Source: a virus | IMG/VR virus record: IMGVR_UViG_3300020185_000257 | Span: 1 to 24,307 of that record | Direction: 5' to 3' (one strand) | DNA: 24,307 bases | Part shown: positions 1-17,513 of the stretch, one piece after another | Position numbering within the stretch: position 1 is the first letter of the stretch | How the letters are laid out: every line of letters starts with the position of its first letter | Position numbers and translations under genes: made by a program | The notes under the pieces: generated by a model | What the model was told of the DNA's origin: nothing | What the model saw: the letters and a program-made list of their open reading frames with translations, nothing else | Databases searched by the model: none

Positions 1-2
1 CT

Positions 3-275
3 CATCAAACATGGGTAAATAGTATAACTAAACAATGCGACCAATTAAAAATTGGATTGAAAGCATATAGATACTTGAGTGAAGCAATAGAACTTGCAAC
101 TGAACTAGGTATTGAAATAGAGGAAGCTGAATTGATTAGAACTAACTCAACAGGCTTAACTATATACAATCCTAAAAATCTAGCTGATATGATTAAAGGC
201 TTAAAGAATAACAAACCTTTAACATTAGCCCAGAAAATAGAGGCAAGAAAAAAATATGAAGAAAGTGTAAATTAA
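3..275 (+). CDS. hypothetical protein, 5' end cut off by window edge
   Basis: The reading frame is open from base 3 without any stop to the TAA at 273-275, so this is the C-terminal 90 residues of a longer gene whose start lies before the window. A TTG at 57 could be read as a start but has no ribosome-binding site, and the frame upstream of it stays coding-like. The visible part is helical and charged (a SEAIELATELGIEIEEAE segment, then a lysine-rich tail). I do not recognise the family. The first promoter-dyad cassette begins four bases after its stop, so the next gene has its own transcription signal. Confidence 0.6.
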   Translation, partial: HQTWVNSITKQCDQLKIGLKAYRYLSEAIELATELGIEIEEAELIRTNSTGLTIYNPKNLADMIKGLKNNKPLTLAQKIEARKKYEESVN

Positions 276-278
276 CAT

Positions 279-327
279 TTGACAAGGGCTATCCTATAAT
301 ATAGGATAGTCCTATAACCAATACAGG
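279..327 (+). promoter_or_regulatory. promoter-dyad cassette, copy 1
   Basis: A perfect TTGACA -35 box (279-284) is followed after 17 bp by TAGGAT (302-307) as the -10 box. The spacer and -10 box lie inside an inverted repeat spanning 285-313: inner arms CTATCCTATA / TATAGGATAG are perfect around a single central base, and the outer arms continue with one G-T pair. A TACAGGAG ribosome-binding site follows (about 322-329), then ATG at 337. The dyad covers the core promoter, which is where a repressor would sit, but it could also act as an RNA hairpin in read-through transcripts. The same layout recurs at 1161, 1486 and 1767. Confidence 0.65.
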
Positions 328-336
328 AGAAATAAC

Positions 337-528
337 ATGGAACTAAACAAACAATTCACAATCACTTATTATTCTAACAAGGATAAAAAGCACATAACAA
401 GACGTGGCAAGTGGACAGATAAATGTAGATATTGGACTAGCAAAATTGGAGATAGTTTAATAACATACTTTGACATGGACAAAGAACAATACAGAACTGC
501 AAAAGGCAGTTGGAAAGTGAGGTTATAA
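337..528 (+). CDS. small hypothetical protein (63 aa)
   Basis: ATG start 8 bases after the strong GGAG ribosome-binding site of cassette copy 1. The 63-residue product is basic and aromatic-rich (FTITYYSNKDKKHITRRGKW near the N-terminus, WTSKIGDSLITYFDMD in the middle) and reads like a small beta-rich domain. I do not recognise it. It is the first gene of a short chain: the next start follows its stop after one base, and two more genes then overlap in sequence up to 1180. Expression is probably set by the promoter-dyad at 279-313. Early-type placement is inferred only from the separate promoter and from lying upstream of the packaging genes. Confidence 0.6.
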   Translation: MELNKQFTITYYSNKDKKHITRRGKWTDKCRYWTSKIGDSLITYFDMDKEQYRTAKGSWKVRL

Positions 529-529
529 T

Positions 530-697
530 ATGGAAGATAGTATATTAAAACTAATTACAATCGGCTATGCTTTAGGCATAGCCATTGTAGGTGTTATGGC
601 TTATCTTGGTATCAAGGGAACTAATGAAGCTATAGATTATCAAAACAGTAGATTAAGACAACACGACAAATGGAGAAAAAATGACACAACTAACTGA
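530..697 (+). CDS. small single-pass membrane protein (55 aa)
   Basis: The ATG at 530 follows the previous stop (526-528) by one base, so translation is probably coupled. The N-terminus has four charged or polar residues, then a hydrophobic span at about residues 6-27 (LKLITIGYALGIAIVGVMAY), then a polar, basic C-terminal tail with DYQNSRLRQHDKWRK. The topology suggests a one-helix inner-membrane protein with a cytoplasmic tail. It overlaps the next gene by 17 bases in another frame. A role such as a small membrane modulator or spanin-like part is possible but not supported by any motif. Function unknown. Confidence 0.5.
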   Translation: MEDSILKLITIGYALGIAIVGVMAYLGIKGTNEAIDYQNSRLRQHDKWRKNDTTN

Positions 698-854
698 TGA
701 GCATTTTGAATTGCACACTAAAAATAAAGCTGAGCAATATGAAAGACAAAAGATTAAATTCTTAGAAGATAGAATTAAAGTCTTAGAAAACGCAATAGAA
801 AGTCATGCTAAAATCTTAGCAAGATTTCAAATGACAGAAGGAGAACAATCATGA
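681..854 (+). CDS. small coiled-coil hypothetical protein (57 aa)
   Basis: The ATG at 681 lies inside the end of the preceding gene and the TGA at 852-854 overlaps the next ATG (ATGA), a pattern typical of coupled phage genes. The product is almost all helix, with heptad-like spacing in KIKFLEDRIKVLENAIESHA (about residues 24-43), so a short coiled-coil is likely. No catalytic or metal-binding residues are visible and I do not recognise the family. The tight packing on both sides, the uniform strand and the coding-like composition support it as a real gene. Confidence 0.5.
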   Translation: MTQLTDEHFELHTKNKAEQYERQKIKFLEDRIKVLENAIESHAKILARFQMTEGEQS

Positions 855-1180
855 GTGAATACGTCTGGTGCCATGGACCAAGCTGTCATACTCAACATAC
901 TCAAGATAGAATACGAGGTGTTAAGGGTAGTAAGGTCTTAAGAACTAAAAAGATAAAACAATTTAATACTCAACATACTAACTTCTATAATTATTTTTGT
1001 AGTCAAGGCTGTTACAATGACTTTGCTCATAAGTATGTTCAACAAGTAATTGCTATTGCACCAAGGACCGAGCCTTTGGAAACACCAATAGAGGTTACCA
1101 AGGAACAGCGACAGTATGGGTGGAGAGACGGAACTTATACAGAAACTGTAATTAATAGGGTTGACAACAATGGTGGATAG
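851..1180 (+). CDS. putative zinc-finger protein (109 aa)
   Basis: Starts in an ATGA overlap with the previous gene, with GAAGGAG 7-13 bases upstream. Cysteine and histidine residues sit in two clusters: WCHGPSCH (C7, H8, C12, H13) and YFCSQGCYNDFAH (C50, C54, H60). The second cluster looks like an FCS/MYM-type zinc knuckle, so a single zinc site holding the two halves is the likely fold. Between them is a basic stretch (GSKVLRTKKIKQF), which would suit nucleic-acid binding. Similar small Cys-rich proteins are common in marine phages, from memory. The gene's last codons form the left part of the second promoter-dyad cassette. Confidence 0.6.
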   Translation: MSEYVWCHGPSCHTQHTQDRIRGVKGSKVLRTKKIKQFNTQHTNFYNYFCSQGCYNDFAHKYVQQVIAIAPRTEPLETPIEVTKEQRQYGWRDGTYTETVINRVDNNGG

Positions 1181-1194
1181 TATAGGATAACCAT
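1161..1194 (+). promoter_or_regulatory. promoter-dyad cassette, copy 2 (overlaps a coding end)
   Basis: TTGACA at 1161-1166 and TAGGAT at 1183-1188 are spaced by 16 bp, followed by TACAGGAG and ATG at 1219. The -35 box and the left arm lie inside the last codons of the zinc-finger gene. Outer arms ATGGT (1170-1174) and ACCAT (1190-1194) are complementary. The inner left half reads GGATAG, the reverse complement of the CTATCC seen in the other copies, so the core here is a direct rather than inverted pair of GGATA half-sites. Confidence 0.5.
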
Positions 1195-1218
1195 ATTAAC
1201 TTATACAGGAGAAATAAC

Positions 1219-1479
1219 ATGACAAAAATAGCCGACACAATAATGGAAACAGGTTACACATTCCAACAGGAACAGTTGCTACATGCATTGGAGAACCAAG
1301 TATGTACAGGTCTGTTGATGTGCAATCCAAGAGTGACAGGCTTTACATCGTTTGCAAAAGCTGTGCTTAATTTTATCAATGATAAGAAAGCGCCTAAGAC
1401 TAAGAATAACTTATACAAGTACTTAGTTGATAACGGTTACTATGAGGGTATACATAAATTCTCTTGGTCCAAGAGATAA
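1219..1479 (+). CDS. hypothetical protein (86 aa)
   Basis: ATG start with the cassette ribosome-binding site (GGAGAAATAAC before the ATG, identical to that of the gene at 337). The 86-residue product is helical, with a single pair of cysteines in QVCTGLLMCNPRVTG (about residues 27-41) and a basic C-terminus. No recognised motif. It stands alone between two promoter-dyad cassettes, so it is probably a monocistronic unit co-regulated with the genes at 337, 1545 and 1826. Confidence 0.6.
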   Translation: MTKIADTIMETGYTFQQEQLLHALENQVCTGLLMCNPRVTGFTSFAKAVLNFINDKKAPKTKNNLYKYLVDNGYYEGIHKFSWSKR

Positions 1480-1485
1480 TAACTA

Positions 1486-1520
1486 TTGACAGGGCTATCC
1501 TAATAAAATAGGATAGTCCT
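1486..1520 (+). promoter_or_regulatory. promoter-dyad cassette, copy 3
   Basis: TTGACA (1486-1491), a 17-bp spacer, then TAGGAT (1509-1514). Inverted repeat arms AGGGCTATCCTA (1491-1502) and TAGGATAGTCCT (1509-1520) enclose a 6-base AT loop, with one G-T pair in the outer arm as in copy 1. TACAGGAG and ATG at 1545 follow. The loop differs in length and sequence from copy 1 while the arms are kept, which suggests that the arms are the functional part. Confidence 0.65.
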
Positions 1521-1544
1521 ACATTAACTTTATACAGGAGATAT

Positions 1545-1760
1545 ATGAAAAGAAAAACTATTAAAGCCGAGTACATGCCAGGCGGCAGCAAGCGACAAGA
1601 ACTATTGGACTCAGTTCCAGATTACTTGTTAAAACCTGGAGCGGACCAGGCAACAAAGCATATGTTTTGCATTGAGATGTTAAAGCTTTCCGAAACAGAA
1701 TACCTGGAAGCATTGAACAAGGCAACCAACGGCGGAGTAGTAGCGTCCGCCTGGAATTAA
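1545..1760 (+). CDS. small hypothetical protein (71 aa)
   Basis: The ATG is preceded by CAGGAGATAT, a strong ribosome-binding site with close spacing. The product begins with a basic tail (MKRKTIKAEYMPGGSKRQ) and continues with two probable helices ending in NGGVVASAWN. No family recognised. Like its neighbours it is a single gene bracketed by promoter-dyad cassettes. A long frame on the opposite strand over the same bases is a shadow with no start signals. Confidence 0.6.
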   Translation: MKRKTIKAEYMPGGSKRQELLDSVPDYLLKPGADQATKHMFCIEMLKLSETEYLEALNKATNGGVVASAWN

Positions 1761-1766
1761 TAACAG

Positions 1767-1804
1767 TTGACATAACTATCCTATCAATGATAGGATAGTT
1801 ATAT
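1767..1804 (+). promoter_or_regulatory. promoter-dyad cassette, copy 4 (perfect 14-bp arms)
   Basis: TTGACA (1767-1772), an 18-bp spacer and TAGGAT (1791-1796). The inverted repeat is perfect over 14 bp: ATAACTATCCTATC (1772-1785), loop AAT, GATAGGATAGTTAT (1789-1802). Relative to copies 1 and 3 the outer arm changed from GGG to TAA and its partner from TCC to TTA, so pairing was kept while sequence changed. TACAGGAG and ATG at 1826 follow. Confidence 0.7.
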
Positions 1805-1825
1805 ATTAATCAATACAGGAGATAT

Positions 1826-2077
1826 ATGAAAACAATTAAATACAATAACAAAGAATACAAACTACCATTTGATGTTGAGTTACCAGAAGACCCAACAGTT
1901 GAGGTTGAGGTTAAGAATAGATTTACTGGTGAAGCAACTACAATGCCAGAGTTTGCAGTTGCAGTATATGACGCAATCATAGGCAGTGAGATGTTCGGTG
2001 ATTATGATACAGTTCGTAAAGGATTGGACTGGTTCAAGCAACACTTTGCAAAACAATACATGGTAGTACTAGACTAA
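1826..2077 (+). CDS. small acidic hypothetical protein (83 aa)
   Basis: ATG start with CAGGAGATAT ribosome-binding site, driven by cassette copy 4. The N-terminus (MKTIKYNNKEYKLPFDVELP) is a probable beta hairpin and is followed by an acidic, helical part containing the phrase GLDWFKQHFAKQY near the C-terminus. The last gene of the early-type block, it precedes the non-coding junction and the terminase gene. Its position just before TerL makes a small-terminase role conceivable, but it lacks a visible DNA-binding helix-turn-helix and is shorter than most TerS proteins, so I leave it as unknown. Confidence 0.6.
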   Translation: MKTIKYNNKEYKLPFDVELPEDPTVEVEVKNRFTGEATTMPEFAVAVYDAIIGSEMFGDYDTVRKGLDWFKQHFAKQYMVVLD

Positions 2078-2087
2078 TCACATACAT

Positions 2088-2139
2088 GTGTGGTCCTGTT
2101 GGACCACACTCACACAACCCTAGGTTGTGCGCCCGCACA
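2088..2139 (+). terminator. tandem/alternative hairpins after the early block
   Basis: Hairpin A pairs GTGTGGTCC (2088-2096) with GGACCACAC (2101-2109) over a TGTT loop. Hairpin B pairs CACAACC (2113-2119) with GGTTGTG (2123-2129). A third possible stem, TGTGC (2126-2130) with GCACA (2135-2139), would use the right arm of B, so B and C exclude each other. There is no T-run directly after any of them, so classical intrinsic termination is uncertain. Termination, RNA protection or attenuation are all possible. Confidence 0.4.
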
Positions 2140-2247
2140 CAATACATAATCAATAGAGGTACCACACCCAATCCCAATTAACTTTGTAACTATATAAACG
2201 ATACACCTTTATATAAAAAGGGGTCCCACTACTTCAGGTTGTATTGC

Positions 2248-2276
2248 TTGTTTTAGACAGATAAGACTGCTATAAT
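2248..2276 (+). promoter_or_regulatory. promoter upstream of the terminase operon
   Basis: A consensus TATAAT (2271-2276) is preceded by TGC, an extended -10 element, and by TTGTTT (2248-2253) at 17 bp as a weak -35 box. It lies in a 240-bp non-coding stretch right before the packaging genes and lacks the dyad of the early-block promoters, so it is probably a separate, late-type promoter. The rest of 2140-2247 shows no clear element. Confidence 0.55.
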
Positions 2277-2321
2277 ACTTCTTCACCTTGAAAAGTGCAA
2301 AAAAATTTTATAAAATTTTTT

Positions 2322-3797
2322 ATGAAACAAAATATAGATATAAGTAAATTACCATCTGACATTAGAACAGAGTACAAGCGTCTAAAAGTAATGCACGCTG
2401 AGAAAAAAATTCAAAGAAAAGCAAAAGATGATTTTATGTCGTTTACAAAAGCTGTTTGGCCCGAGTTTATTGAAGGAGCGCACCATAGAGTTATTGCTCA
2501 AAAATTTAATGACCTTGCAACTAAGAAAATAAATAGATTAATTATTAATATGCCACCCAGACACACTAAGTCTGAGTTTGCATCTTACCTACTTCCAGCA
2601 TGGATGGTGGGCCGTAATCCAAAACTCAAGATCATTCAAGCAACCCACACAGGAGAGTTAGCCGTAAGGTTTGGTCGTAAAGCTAAAACACTAATTGATA
2701 GTGATGAATATTCTAAAATATTTGACACAACACTTAGGGAAGATTCTCAGGCTGCAGGAAGATGGGAGACTGCTCAAGGTGGAGAGTATTTTGCAGCGGG
2801 TGTTGGTGGAGCAATCACGGGCCGTGGTGCGGATTTACTAATTATTGATGATCCACACTCGGAGCAAGACGCAATGAGTCTTAACGCGTTTGATAATGCG
2901 TATGAATGGTATACATCGGGTCCACGTCAAAGGCTTCAACCGGGTGGACAGATAGTTTTAGTTATGACGCGTTGGTCAAAAAAAGATTTAACAGGTATTT
3001 TATTAGATAATCAGAAAAAAGTTAAGGGTGATCAGTGGGAAGTGGTTGAATTTCCAGCAATCTTGGACCACGGAGATAAGAAAAAACCTGTTTGGCCAGA
3101 ATATTGGAAATTATCAGAGTTAGAAAGTGTTAAAGCAACGCTTCCGGTTGGAAAATGGAACGCACAATGGATGCAAGAGCCAACTTCTGAAGAAGGAGCA
3201 CTAATTAAACGTGAATGGTGGAAGAAATGGGATAAAGAATTTTTACCAGACGTTAGTTACGTAATTCAAAGCTATGATACGGCTTTTTTGAAGAAAGAAA
3301 CGGCCGATTACTCTGCAATCACTACTTGGGGTATATTTTACCCTACTGAAGATAGTAAACCTAATATAATTTTGCTAGATGCGATAAAAGAGCGTTATGA
3401 GTTTCCAGAACTGCGTCGTGCCGCATTAGAGCAATATAAATATTGGAATCCGGATATGGTGATTGTTGAGCAGAAAGCATCTGGAACCCCACTAACTCAC
3501 GAACTTAGACAAATGGACATTCCGGTGATGACTTTTACTCCAAGTCGTGGTAATGATAAACATGTTAGAGTAAATTCTTGTGCACCGTTATTTGAGGCCG
3601 GTTTAATTTGGGCTCCTGATGAACAGTTTGCAGAAGAGGTCATTGAGGAATGTGCGTCATTTCCTTATGGCGATCATGATGACTTAGTCGATTCTATGAC
3701 TATGGCTATTATGCGATTTAGGCAGGGAGGCTTCCTACCCCACCCAGAGGATTACGAAGACGAAATACCAGAACCAAGGAAGAAGGAGTACTATTAA
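2322..3797 (+). CDS. terL: terminase large subunit (DNA packaging motor)
   Basis: ATPase-nuclease that translocates DNA into the prohead and cuts the concatemer. Numbering from the ATG at 2322 (491 aa): an N-terminal helical arm; Walker A-like PPRHTKS at 78-84; Walker B LLIIDD at 172-177; an ATPase coupling-type motif MTRWS near 215; then an RNase H-fold nuclease with acidic residues in SYDTA (D319), VIVEQKASG (E383) and YGDHDDLVDS (D454, D457). The length is normal for the family. A GTG at 2295 in the same frame would add nine residues. Neither start has a clear ribosome-binding site, and I prefer the ATG because MKQNIDISKLP resembles the usual TerL beginning. Its stop overlaps the next ATG (TAATG). 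No small terminase was recognised nearby. Confidence 0.93.
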   Translation: MKQNIDISKLPSDIRTEYKRLKVMHAEKKIQRKAKDDFMSFTKAVWPEFIEGAHHRVIAQKFNDLATKKINRLIINMPPRHTKSEFASYLLPAWMVGRNPKLKIIQATHTGELAVRFGRKAKTLIDSDEYSKIFDTTLREDSQAAGRWETAQGGEYFAAGVGGAITGRGADLLIIDDPHSEQDAMSLNAFDNAYEWYTSGPRQRLQPGGQIVLVMTRWSKKDLTGILLDNQKKVKGDQWEVVEFPAILDHGDKKKPVWPEYWKLSELESVKATLPVGKWNAQWMQEPTSEEGALIKREWWKKWDKEFLPDVSYVIQSYDTAFLKKETADYSAITTWGIFYPTEDSKPNIILLDAIKERYEFPELRRAALEQYKYWNPDMVIVEQKASGTPLTHELRQMDIPVMTFTPSRGNDKHVRVNSCAPLFEAGLIWAPDEQFAEEVIEECASFPYGDHDDLVDSMTMAIMRFRQGGFLPHPEDYEDEIPEPRKKEYY

Positions 3798-16529: not shown

Positions 16530-17450
16530 ATGGCAATATCACGAGCACAGCTAGTTAAAGAACTAGAACCAGGTCTGAATGCACTATTCGGACTAGAGTA
16601 CAAAAGGTATGAAAATCAGCACGCTGAAATTTATACAACGGAATCATCAGACAGAGCTTTTGAAGAAGAAGTAATGTTATCTGGTTTCGCTAACGCAGAT
16701 GTAAAAGCAGAAGGTCAAGGCGTATCATATGATGATGCACAAGAGACTTATACTGCAAGATACACTATGGAAACGATCGCGCTAGCTTTCGCTATCACAG
16801 AAGAAGCAATAGAGGACAACCTTTATGACAGACTTTCTTCTAGATACACAAAAGCACTAGCAAGATCTATGTCTAACGCTAAAGAAGTTAAAGGCGCAGC
16901 ACCATTGAACAACGGTTTACCAGCTATTGCAGCTGCAACTGCTTTTCAAACAGGTGATGGCGAAAACTTACTTTCGCTAAATCACCCAACAATTGCGGGT
17001 ACTGTAGCGAATACTTTAGGTACGCAGGCTGACTTAAACGAAACTTCATTAGAACAAGCATTGATTGATATCGCTGCTATGACTGATGAAAGAGGTTTGA
17101 GAATAGCTGCAAAAGGAGTTAAAATGATAATTCCTTCTGCGAATCAGTTCAATGCTGAAAGACTTATGAAGTCTCAAGGTAGAACTCAAACTGCTGATAA
17201 TGACATCAATGCAATCAACTCAATGGGTATGATTCCTCAAGGTTACAGAGTGAACAATTTCCTAACTGATGCTGATTCTTGGTACATTTTGACTGACGTT
17301 CCAAATGGTATGAAGATGTTCTCAAGAACTCCGTTGACTACGTCAATGGAAGGAGACTTCGATACAGGCAATGTTAGATACAAAGCTAGAGAAAGATACG
17401 CTTTTGGCGCATCTGACTTTAGAGGTATCTTCGGTTGCGAAGGTGCGTAA
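16530..17450 (+). CDS. major capsid protein (HK97 fold, Mu gpT-like)
   Basis: Main shell subunit. 306 residues. The N-terminal arm (LVKELEPGLNALFGLEYKRY) is followed by EEEVMLSGFANADVKAEGQGVSYDDAQETYTARYTMETIALAFAITEEAIEDN-type sequence (quoted in part), which is the E-loop/P-domain pattern of Mu-like gpT capsid proteins. The rest fits a full HK97 A and P domain with IIPSANQFNAERLMKS and a final GIFGCEGA. It lacks a long N-terminal delta domain, which fits the separate scaffold gene. Terminated by the hairpin at 17465-17489, so it probably ends a message. Confidence 0.8.
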   Translation: MAISRAQLVKELEPGLNALFGLEYKRYENQHAEIYTTESSDRAFEEEVMLSGFANADVKAEGQGVSYDDAQETYTARYTMETIALAFAITEEAIEDNLYDRLSSRYTKALARSMSNAKEVKGAAPLNNGLPAIAAATAFQTGDGENLLSLNHPTIAGTVANTLGTQADLNETSLEQALIDIAAMTDERGLRIAAKGVKMIIPSANQFNAERLMKSQGRTQTADNDINAINSMGMIPQGYRVNNFLTDADSWYILTDVPNGMKMFSRTPLTTSMEGDFDTGNVRYKARERYAFGASDFRGIFGCEGA

Positions 17451-17464
17451 GCAATAATCATTTT

Positions 17465-17492
17465 TGTGGCCGAACATGTTTCGGCCACATTT
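17465..17492 (+). terminator. intrinsic terminator after the capsid gene
   Basis: TGTGGCCGAA (17465-17474) pairs with TTCGGCCACA (17480-17489) around the loop CATGT, a 10-bp GC-containing stem, followed by TTTAATT. It sits between the capsid stop (17450) and the next start (17514). The stem is strong, and the downstream T-tract is short. Confidence 0.75.
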
Positions 17493-17513
17493 AATTAGTA
17501 GAAAGAAAAAACA

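Follow-up and report, generated by a model that had tools for sequence, protein, structure and literature searches.

Conserved pairing in hairpins that overlap TTGACA/TAGGAT promoters of an HTVC023P-type phage fragment and its relatives

What does an inverted repeat do when it lies across a phage promoter and recurs ahead of one small gene after another? The question arises from a 24,307-base IMG/VR virus fragment (hereafter the window), for which a first-pass annotation had described four matching cassettes and proposed either that a phage- or host-encoded regulator reads their shared CTATCCTA/TAGGATAG dyad or that the dyads work as RNA hairpins. The window encodes a TerL protein (2322-3797) with 70% identity to those of Pelagibacter phage HTVC027P and phage 023Pt_psg01 and 61% identity to that of HTVC023P; judged by this relatedness, it is a piece of an HTVC023P-type podovirus (pelagiphage). 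The phages in which we found hairpin-bearing promoters are relatives of known SAR11-infecting phages.

Promoters and small genes of the window

TTGACA and TAGGAT, separated by 17, 16, 17 and 18 nt, were found exactly at positions 279, 1161, 1486 and 1767, respectively, as first annotated (Table 1); shuffled sequences gave an expectation of 0.04 sites. All four are followed by TACAGGAG ahead of an ATG and by four different small ORFs, none with a significant Pfam or PHROG match. The inverted repeat claimed for every site is strong at 279, 1486 and 1767, where the dyads fold as RNA with -18 to -19 kcal/mol (z -4.4 to -4.8). Site 1161 has none (fold z -0.55); its spacer contains the 3′ end of the ORF that precedes it (851-1180), stop codon included. 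The window thus has one plain promoter and hairpin cassettes at the other three sites, not four matching cassettes. Across the whole window, CTATCCTA with at most one mismatch occurs at chance level.

Table 1. Promoter elements and small genes in the window
Feature	Position	Strand	Remarks
Cassette 1, -35 box TTGACA	279..284	+	3 nt past upstream stop codon (273-275)
Cassette 1, hairpin	285..313	+	arms 285-297 / 301-313, one G.U pair; fold z -4.8
Cassette 1, -10 TAGGAT	302..307	+	within hairpin; predicted +1 near 314
Cassette 1, ribosome-binding site TACAGGAG	322..329	+	
Small gene 1	337..528	+	63 aa, family 0; orthologue HTVC027P gp36; weak WYL_2/Sm-like match
Cassette 2, plain promoter, no hairpin	1161..1188	+	TTGACA 1161-1166, -10 TAGGAT 1183-1188
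Cassette 2, ribosome-binding site TACAGGAG	1204..1211	+	
Small gene 2	1219..1479	+	86 aa, no family match
Cassette 3, -35 box TTGACA	1486..1491	+	
Cassette 3, hairpin	1491..1520	+	arms 1491-1502 / 1509-1520; -10 TAGGAT 1509-1514 inside; fold z -4.8
Cassette 3, ribosome-binding site TACAGGAG	1533..1540	+	
Small gene 3	1545..1760	+	71 aa, family 3; orthologue HTVC027P gp38
Cassette 4, -35 box TTGACA	1767..1772	+	
Cassette 4, hairpin	1772..1802	+	arms 1772-1785 / 1789-1802, fully paired; -10 TAGGAT 1791-1796 inside; fold z -4.4
Cassette 4, ribosome-binding site TACAGGAG	1814..1821	+	
Small gene 4	1826..2077	+	83 aa, family 1

A covariance-model search of window positions 1-2400 against Rfam 15 gave no match up to E=1. 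The weak WYL_2 (Sm-like SH3 barrel) match of small gene 1 was obtained with six of the eight family members tested (best E 0.0015), the window's own protein scoring under the Pfam cut-off, and a PDB profile search with this family returned no significant match. We also noted a GC-rich hairpin at 2084-2115 (GTGTGGTCC-tgtt-GGACCACAC region), in the gap that separates TerL from the last small gene; at the equivalent position, relatives have different GC-rich hairpins with a CTAAC-type loop, possibly a second variable-arm structure.

Two promoter classes in related phages

The dispersed, gene-by-gene promoter set described in the first-pass annotation recurs in relatives. In 80 loci retrieved via TerL alone we found 75 TTGACA-N14-20-TAGGAT sites, and TAGGAT was enriched 19-fold among the TANNNT hexamers at this distance from TTGACA. 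Five such sites are present in the genome of HTVC027P, and scans of HTVC023P and 023Pt_psg01 gave none in either. The motif TACAGGAG is often replaced by AGAAAGG in relatives and was therefore rejected as a conserved start-associated element.

When every locus then collected was considered, including those fetched with the dyad pattern, the 194 distinct promoter cores fell into two groups: 90 with at least 10 net Watson-Crick pairs, a level that no shuffled sequence reached, and a remainder mostly at background. The relatives thus have two promoter classes, plain and hairpin, with TTGACA and TAGGAT common to both. In the hairpin class the stem comprises 9-16 bp and extends from the end of the -35 box to about +2, its 3′ arm holding the -10 box.

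The distance from TAGGAT to ATG in the plain group, which lacks a long dyad, peaks at 6-8 nt, with no case at 9-14 nt. This spacing points to leaderless messages that begin where a sigma70 start is expected, and so to TAGGAT as the -10 box. With TTGACA, a spacer of 16-18 nt and TANNNT, the promoters have the sequence features of the host sigma70 type, and the same leaderless spacing fits a predicted +1 at the 3′ edge of the hairpin in the other class. Independent agreement that the plain promoters act as a group comes from HTVC027P: published RNA-seq (PMC12753301) assigns gp33 and gp34, which are the two genes preceded by minus-strand plain TAGGAT promoters, to an early-to-middle temporal cluster of which they are the sole members.

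Some features of the plain promoters are recorded here as separate observations. The sequence GGATA, 8 to 4 nt ahead of TAGGAT, is strongly conserved among them; in part it corresponds to the stop codon that ends the preceding ORF (e.g. window 1178-1180), which leaves GGATAT variants unexplained. In HTVC027P a separate GC-rich hairpin (17483-17511) lies between gp34 and the plain gp33 promoter, as though the two were separate elements there. The product of gp33 (16750-17349), whose function is given as unknown (PMC12753301), matches Pfam GP88 with E 2.5e-28.

The two classes also differ in gene context. At loci chosen independently of the dyad, 143 of 147 hairpin promoters sit 2-9 nt (mostly 3 nt) after a co-directional stop codon, although most of these hairpins belong to one orthologous locus (family 0), so that the association with an upstream gene is based on few independent gene families and orthology is a confounder. 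In contrast, none of 71 plain promoters shows this spacing; 47 overlap the end of a co-directional ORF and 17 have no such ORF.

Conservation of pairing in orthologues

An exact-dyad scan is biased towards conserved arms, and our conclusions on the hairpin are therefore based on protein-anchored samples. Orthologues of the gene at 337-528 were collected via protein homology, without use of the dyad in their selection, and a dyad was scored at a net value of at least 8, which 0.5% of shuffles reach; axis and threshold were picked to find dyads, and all mismatch types were penalised equally. Among distinct upstream regions with TTGACA (at most one mismatch), 46 of 47 had such a dyad, all 46 with TANNNT at 16-18 nt, and the remaining region (L214) shows interrupted complementarity as judged by eye. 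A dyad was likewise present in 40 of 42 members of one further protein-anchored sample (subC, the MTKTF subfamily) and in 30 of the 41 regions with any TTGACA-like match in another (subB), the others there being mostly without a recognisable promoter. The permuted -35 controls were partly contaminated, TAGACT falling within other TAGGAT promoters and some others overlapping TTGACA.

Pairing persists while the sequence changes. The 46 family-0 promoters use eleven different -10 hexamers (TAGGAT in 22, TATACT in 8, TATTCT in 5, and eight others), and even TATAAT is seen among the -10 variants of hairpin promoters, with the spacer arm changed to match. All 46 native promoters are paired, whereas in chimeras that join the spacer of one to a different -10 hexamer of another only 9% are paired and 91% lose the stem. 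Most stem positions show three or four pair types (first set, 94 arm pairs), loop length ranges from 1 to 9 nt, and the hairpin of cassette 1 itself is kept with compensation in its orthologues. Such compensatory changes are those of a structure under selection for pairing: what is conserved in the hairpin promoters is pairing rather than sequence, and what evolution has preserved is folding, not the fixed binding site of a shared regulator. The option that the dyads work as RNA hairpins, also raised in the first-pass annotation, fits compensatory change better than the regulator does.

The pairs that fail hint at the strand. Single transitions in a stem are expected to produce G.T and A.C mismatches in equal number. 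Among 98 arm pairs from dyad-independent samples we counted 28 G.T/T.G, 3 A.C/C.A and 2 other mismatches, with one A.C/C.A cell and one of the others coming from L495, whose axis is doubtful; counted by clusters of similar arms, the ratio was 16 to 3 (p=0.004). Since no strand bias is seen at four-fold sites of the window, the excess of G.T over A.C argues for selection on the sense strand, and the tolerated mismatches point to sense-strand RNA, although a strand-specific DNA structure would be expected to give the same bias.

Explanations for the hairpin and comparison with known systems

The best reading of these data is a structural element in read-through RNA, whose exact function is putative. 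Sites 279, 1486 and 1767 would be fused promoter-hairpin boundary elements between co-directional small genes, and site 1161 a plain counterpart set into the 3′ end of the preceding gene. RNA initiated at the promoter should start where the hairpin ends or slightly beyond it, and so include little or nothing of the stem; given the predicted start at the 3′ edge, a complete hairpin would require RNA that reads through from upstream, and selection would act on this RNA, with G.U tolerated on the sense strand. The hairpin most likely marks the gene boundary, where it may stabilise the upstream message at its 3′ end, promote processing of that end, or weaken read-through, while the promoter would restart transcription for the next gene. 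As the whole explanation, we give a fused boundary element acting in read-through RNA an even chance.

Hairpin and promoter are mostly lost together, an observation equally compatible with a role of the hairpin in the promoter itself. Joint presence or absence, and a stem that spans the region from -35 to about +2, would also suit a structure at the DNA level, in which supercoiling or single-stranded DNA lets the promoter extrude as a hairpin or cruciform and so buries or exposes the -10 box. We consider this unlikely: a cruciform involves both strands, whereas G.T lies well above A.C on the sense strand, and the hairpin is absent from plain promoters that have no upstream gene.

An operator, at which a dimeric phage or host regulator would bind the dyad across spacer and -10 box and repress a regulon, appears distinctly improbable. 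Perfect dyads over the -10 box and four related promoters within one window speak for it, as does the repressor proposed for the similar ESAS of mycobacteriophage Adephagia, in which an inverted repeat accompanies a SigA-like promoter (PMC11373665). However, half-site sequence is not conserved: in dyad-independent orthologues the arms, and even the -10 box within them, vary with compensation, and the covariation led us to reject CTATCCTA/TAGGATAG as a shared operator. Nor is spacing fixed, as the variation in loop length shifts the half-sites round the helix. No DNA-binding or helix-turn-helix regulator domain stood out for the 33 HTVC027P proteins among the 25 most frequent Pfam families listed. 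The exact dyad pattern occurred three times across 257 Gb of genome sequence from bacteria and archaea, near a rough chance estimate of about 2 and always in GC-rich MAGs; it is thus not a common host element, and chromosomal use of the exact cassette was rejected. One of these matches, in a Polyangiaceae MAG (L201, 1905-1934), has the same -35/dyad pattern ahead of two short ORFs, antitoxin-like and PIN-type toxin-like, and is probably chance or unrelated autoregulation. The switch envisaged in the first-pass annotation is unlikely to be of the lysogeny type, because published work describes HTVC027P as a lytic phage that lacks its own RNA polymerase (PMC12753301).

That the hairpin is an intrinsic terminator of the upstream gene, overlapping the promoter by accident, we regard as very unlikely; position directly after a stop codon and a stable stem (mean -16 kcal/mol) are in keeping with it, but the 3′ flank is T-poor (mean 1.2 T in the 8 nt past the stem) and thus has no U-tract, which makes intrinsic termination unlikely. 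Template switching in replication, which would keep palindromes perfect without any function and would itself yield compensatory change, explains neither the G.T bias nor the fixed placement with respect to the -35 box, the -10 box and the stop codon, and can be given little credence.

Among known systems the closest analogue appears to be the ESAS/SAS of cluster K mycobacteriophages (PMC11373665), likewise repeated intergenic cassettes ahead of small phage genes with a sigma70/SigA-like promoter, 17-18 nt spacing, an inverted repeat and a start-associated motif. In the copies read, ESAS arms have near-fixed sequence (TGTTGACATGCATACAG...), -35 included, with loops of 9-12 nt; this was so in six of seven Adephagia upstream regions, the dyad search at gene 36 having selected another hairpin. 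The pelagiphage elements differ in that -35 lies outside the stem and the arms vary with compensation; conserved 15-17 nt arms that include -35 were not found in their hairpins, and the SAS 13-mer GGGATAGGAGCCC near the start codon is absent from the four window leaders, which carry TACAGGAG.

More distant likenesses concern the placement of a hairpin next to a promoter. The PeSL cassettes of T4-type phages, compared here by description, consist of an early promoter and an adjacent stem-loop and are mobile between genes; they share with the pelagiphage elements a stem-loop and promoter between small genes, but the two parts are adjacent, whereas here the -10 box lies within the stem. Phage T7 pairs promoters with RNase III sites, placing an RNA-processing hairpin with a promoter at gene boundaries; its hairpin follows a promoter for the phage polymerase, whereas here the hairpin precedes the predicted start of a sigma70-type promoter. 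Transposase genes of the IS10 type are protected by a fold-back in which, as here, the hairpin would be fully formed only by read-through RNA, but in their case the ribosome-binding site is covered by the 3′ arm, whereas in the pelagiphage elements it lies outside the stem.

We suggest tentatively, and with some doubt, that the fusion of hairpin and promoter makes a gene-boundary element of a new kind, in which a -10 box within the stem would let the cell or phage treat read-through and newly started RNA differently. The finding itself provides a concrete promoter grammar for HTVC023P-type phages, together with a nucleic-acid structure that covaries and is linked to the promoter, both testable in the cultured pair HTVC027P/HTCC1062, and it cautions that an inverted repeat over a promoter is not always an operator. 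If true, the hairpin-promoter boundary element would be widespread in an abundant marine phage group.
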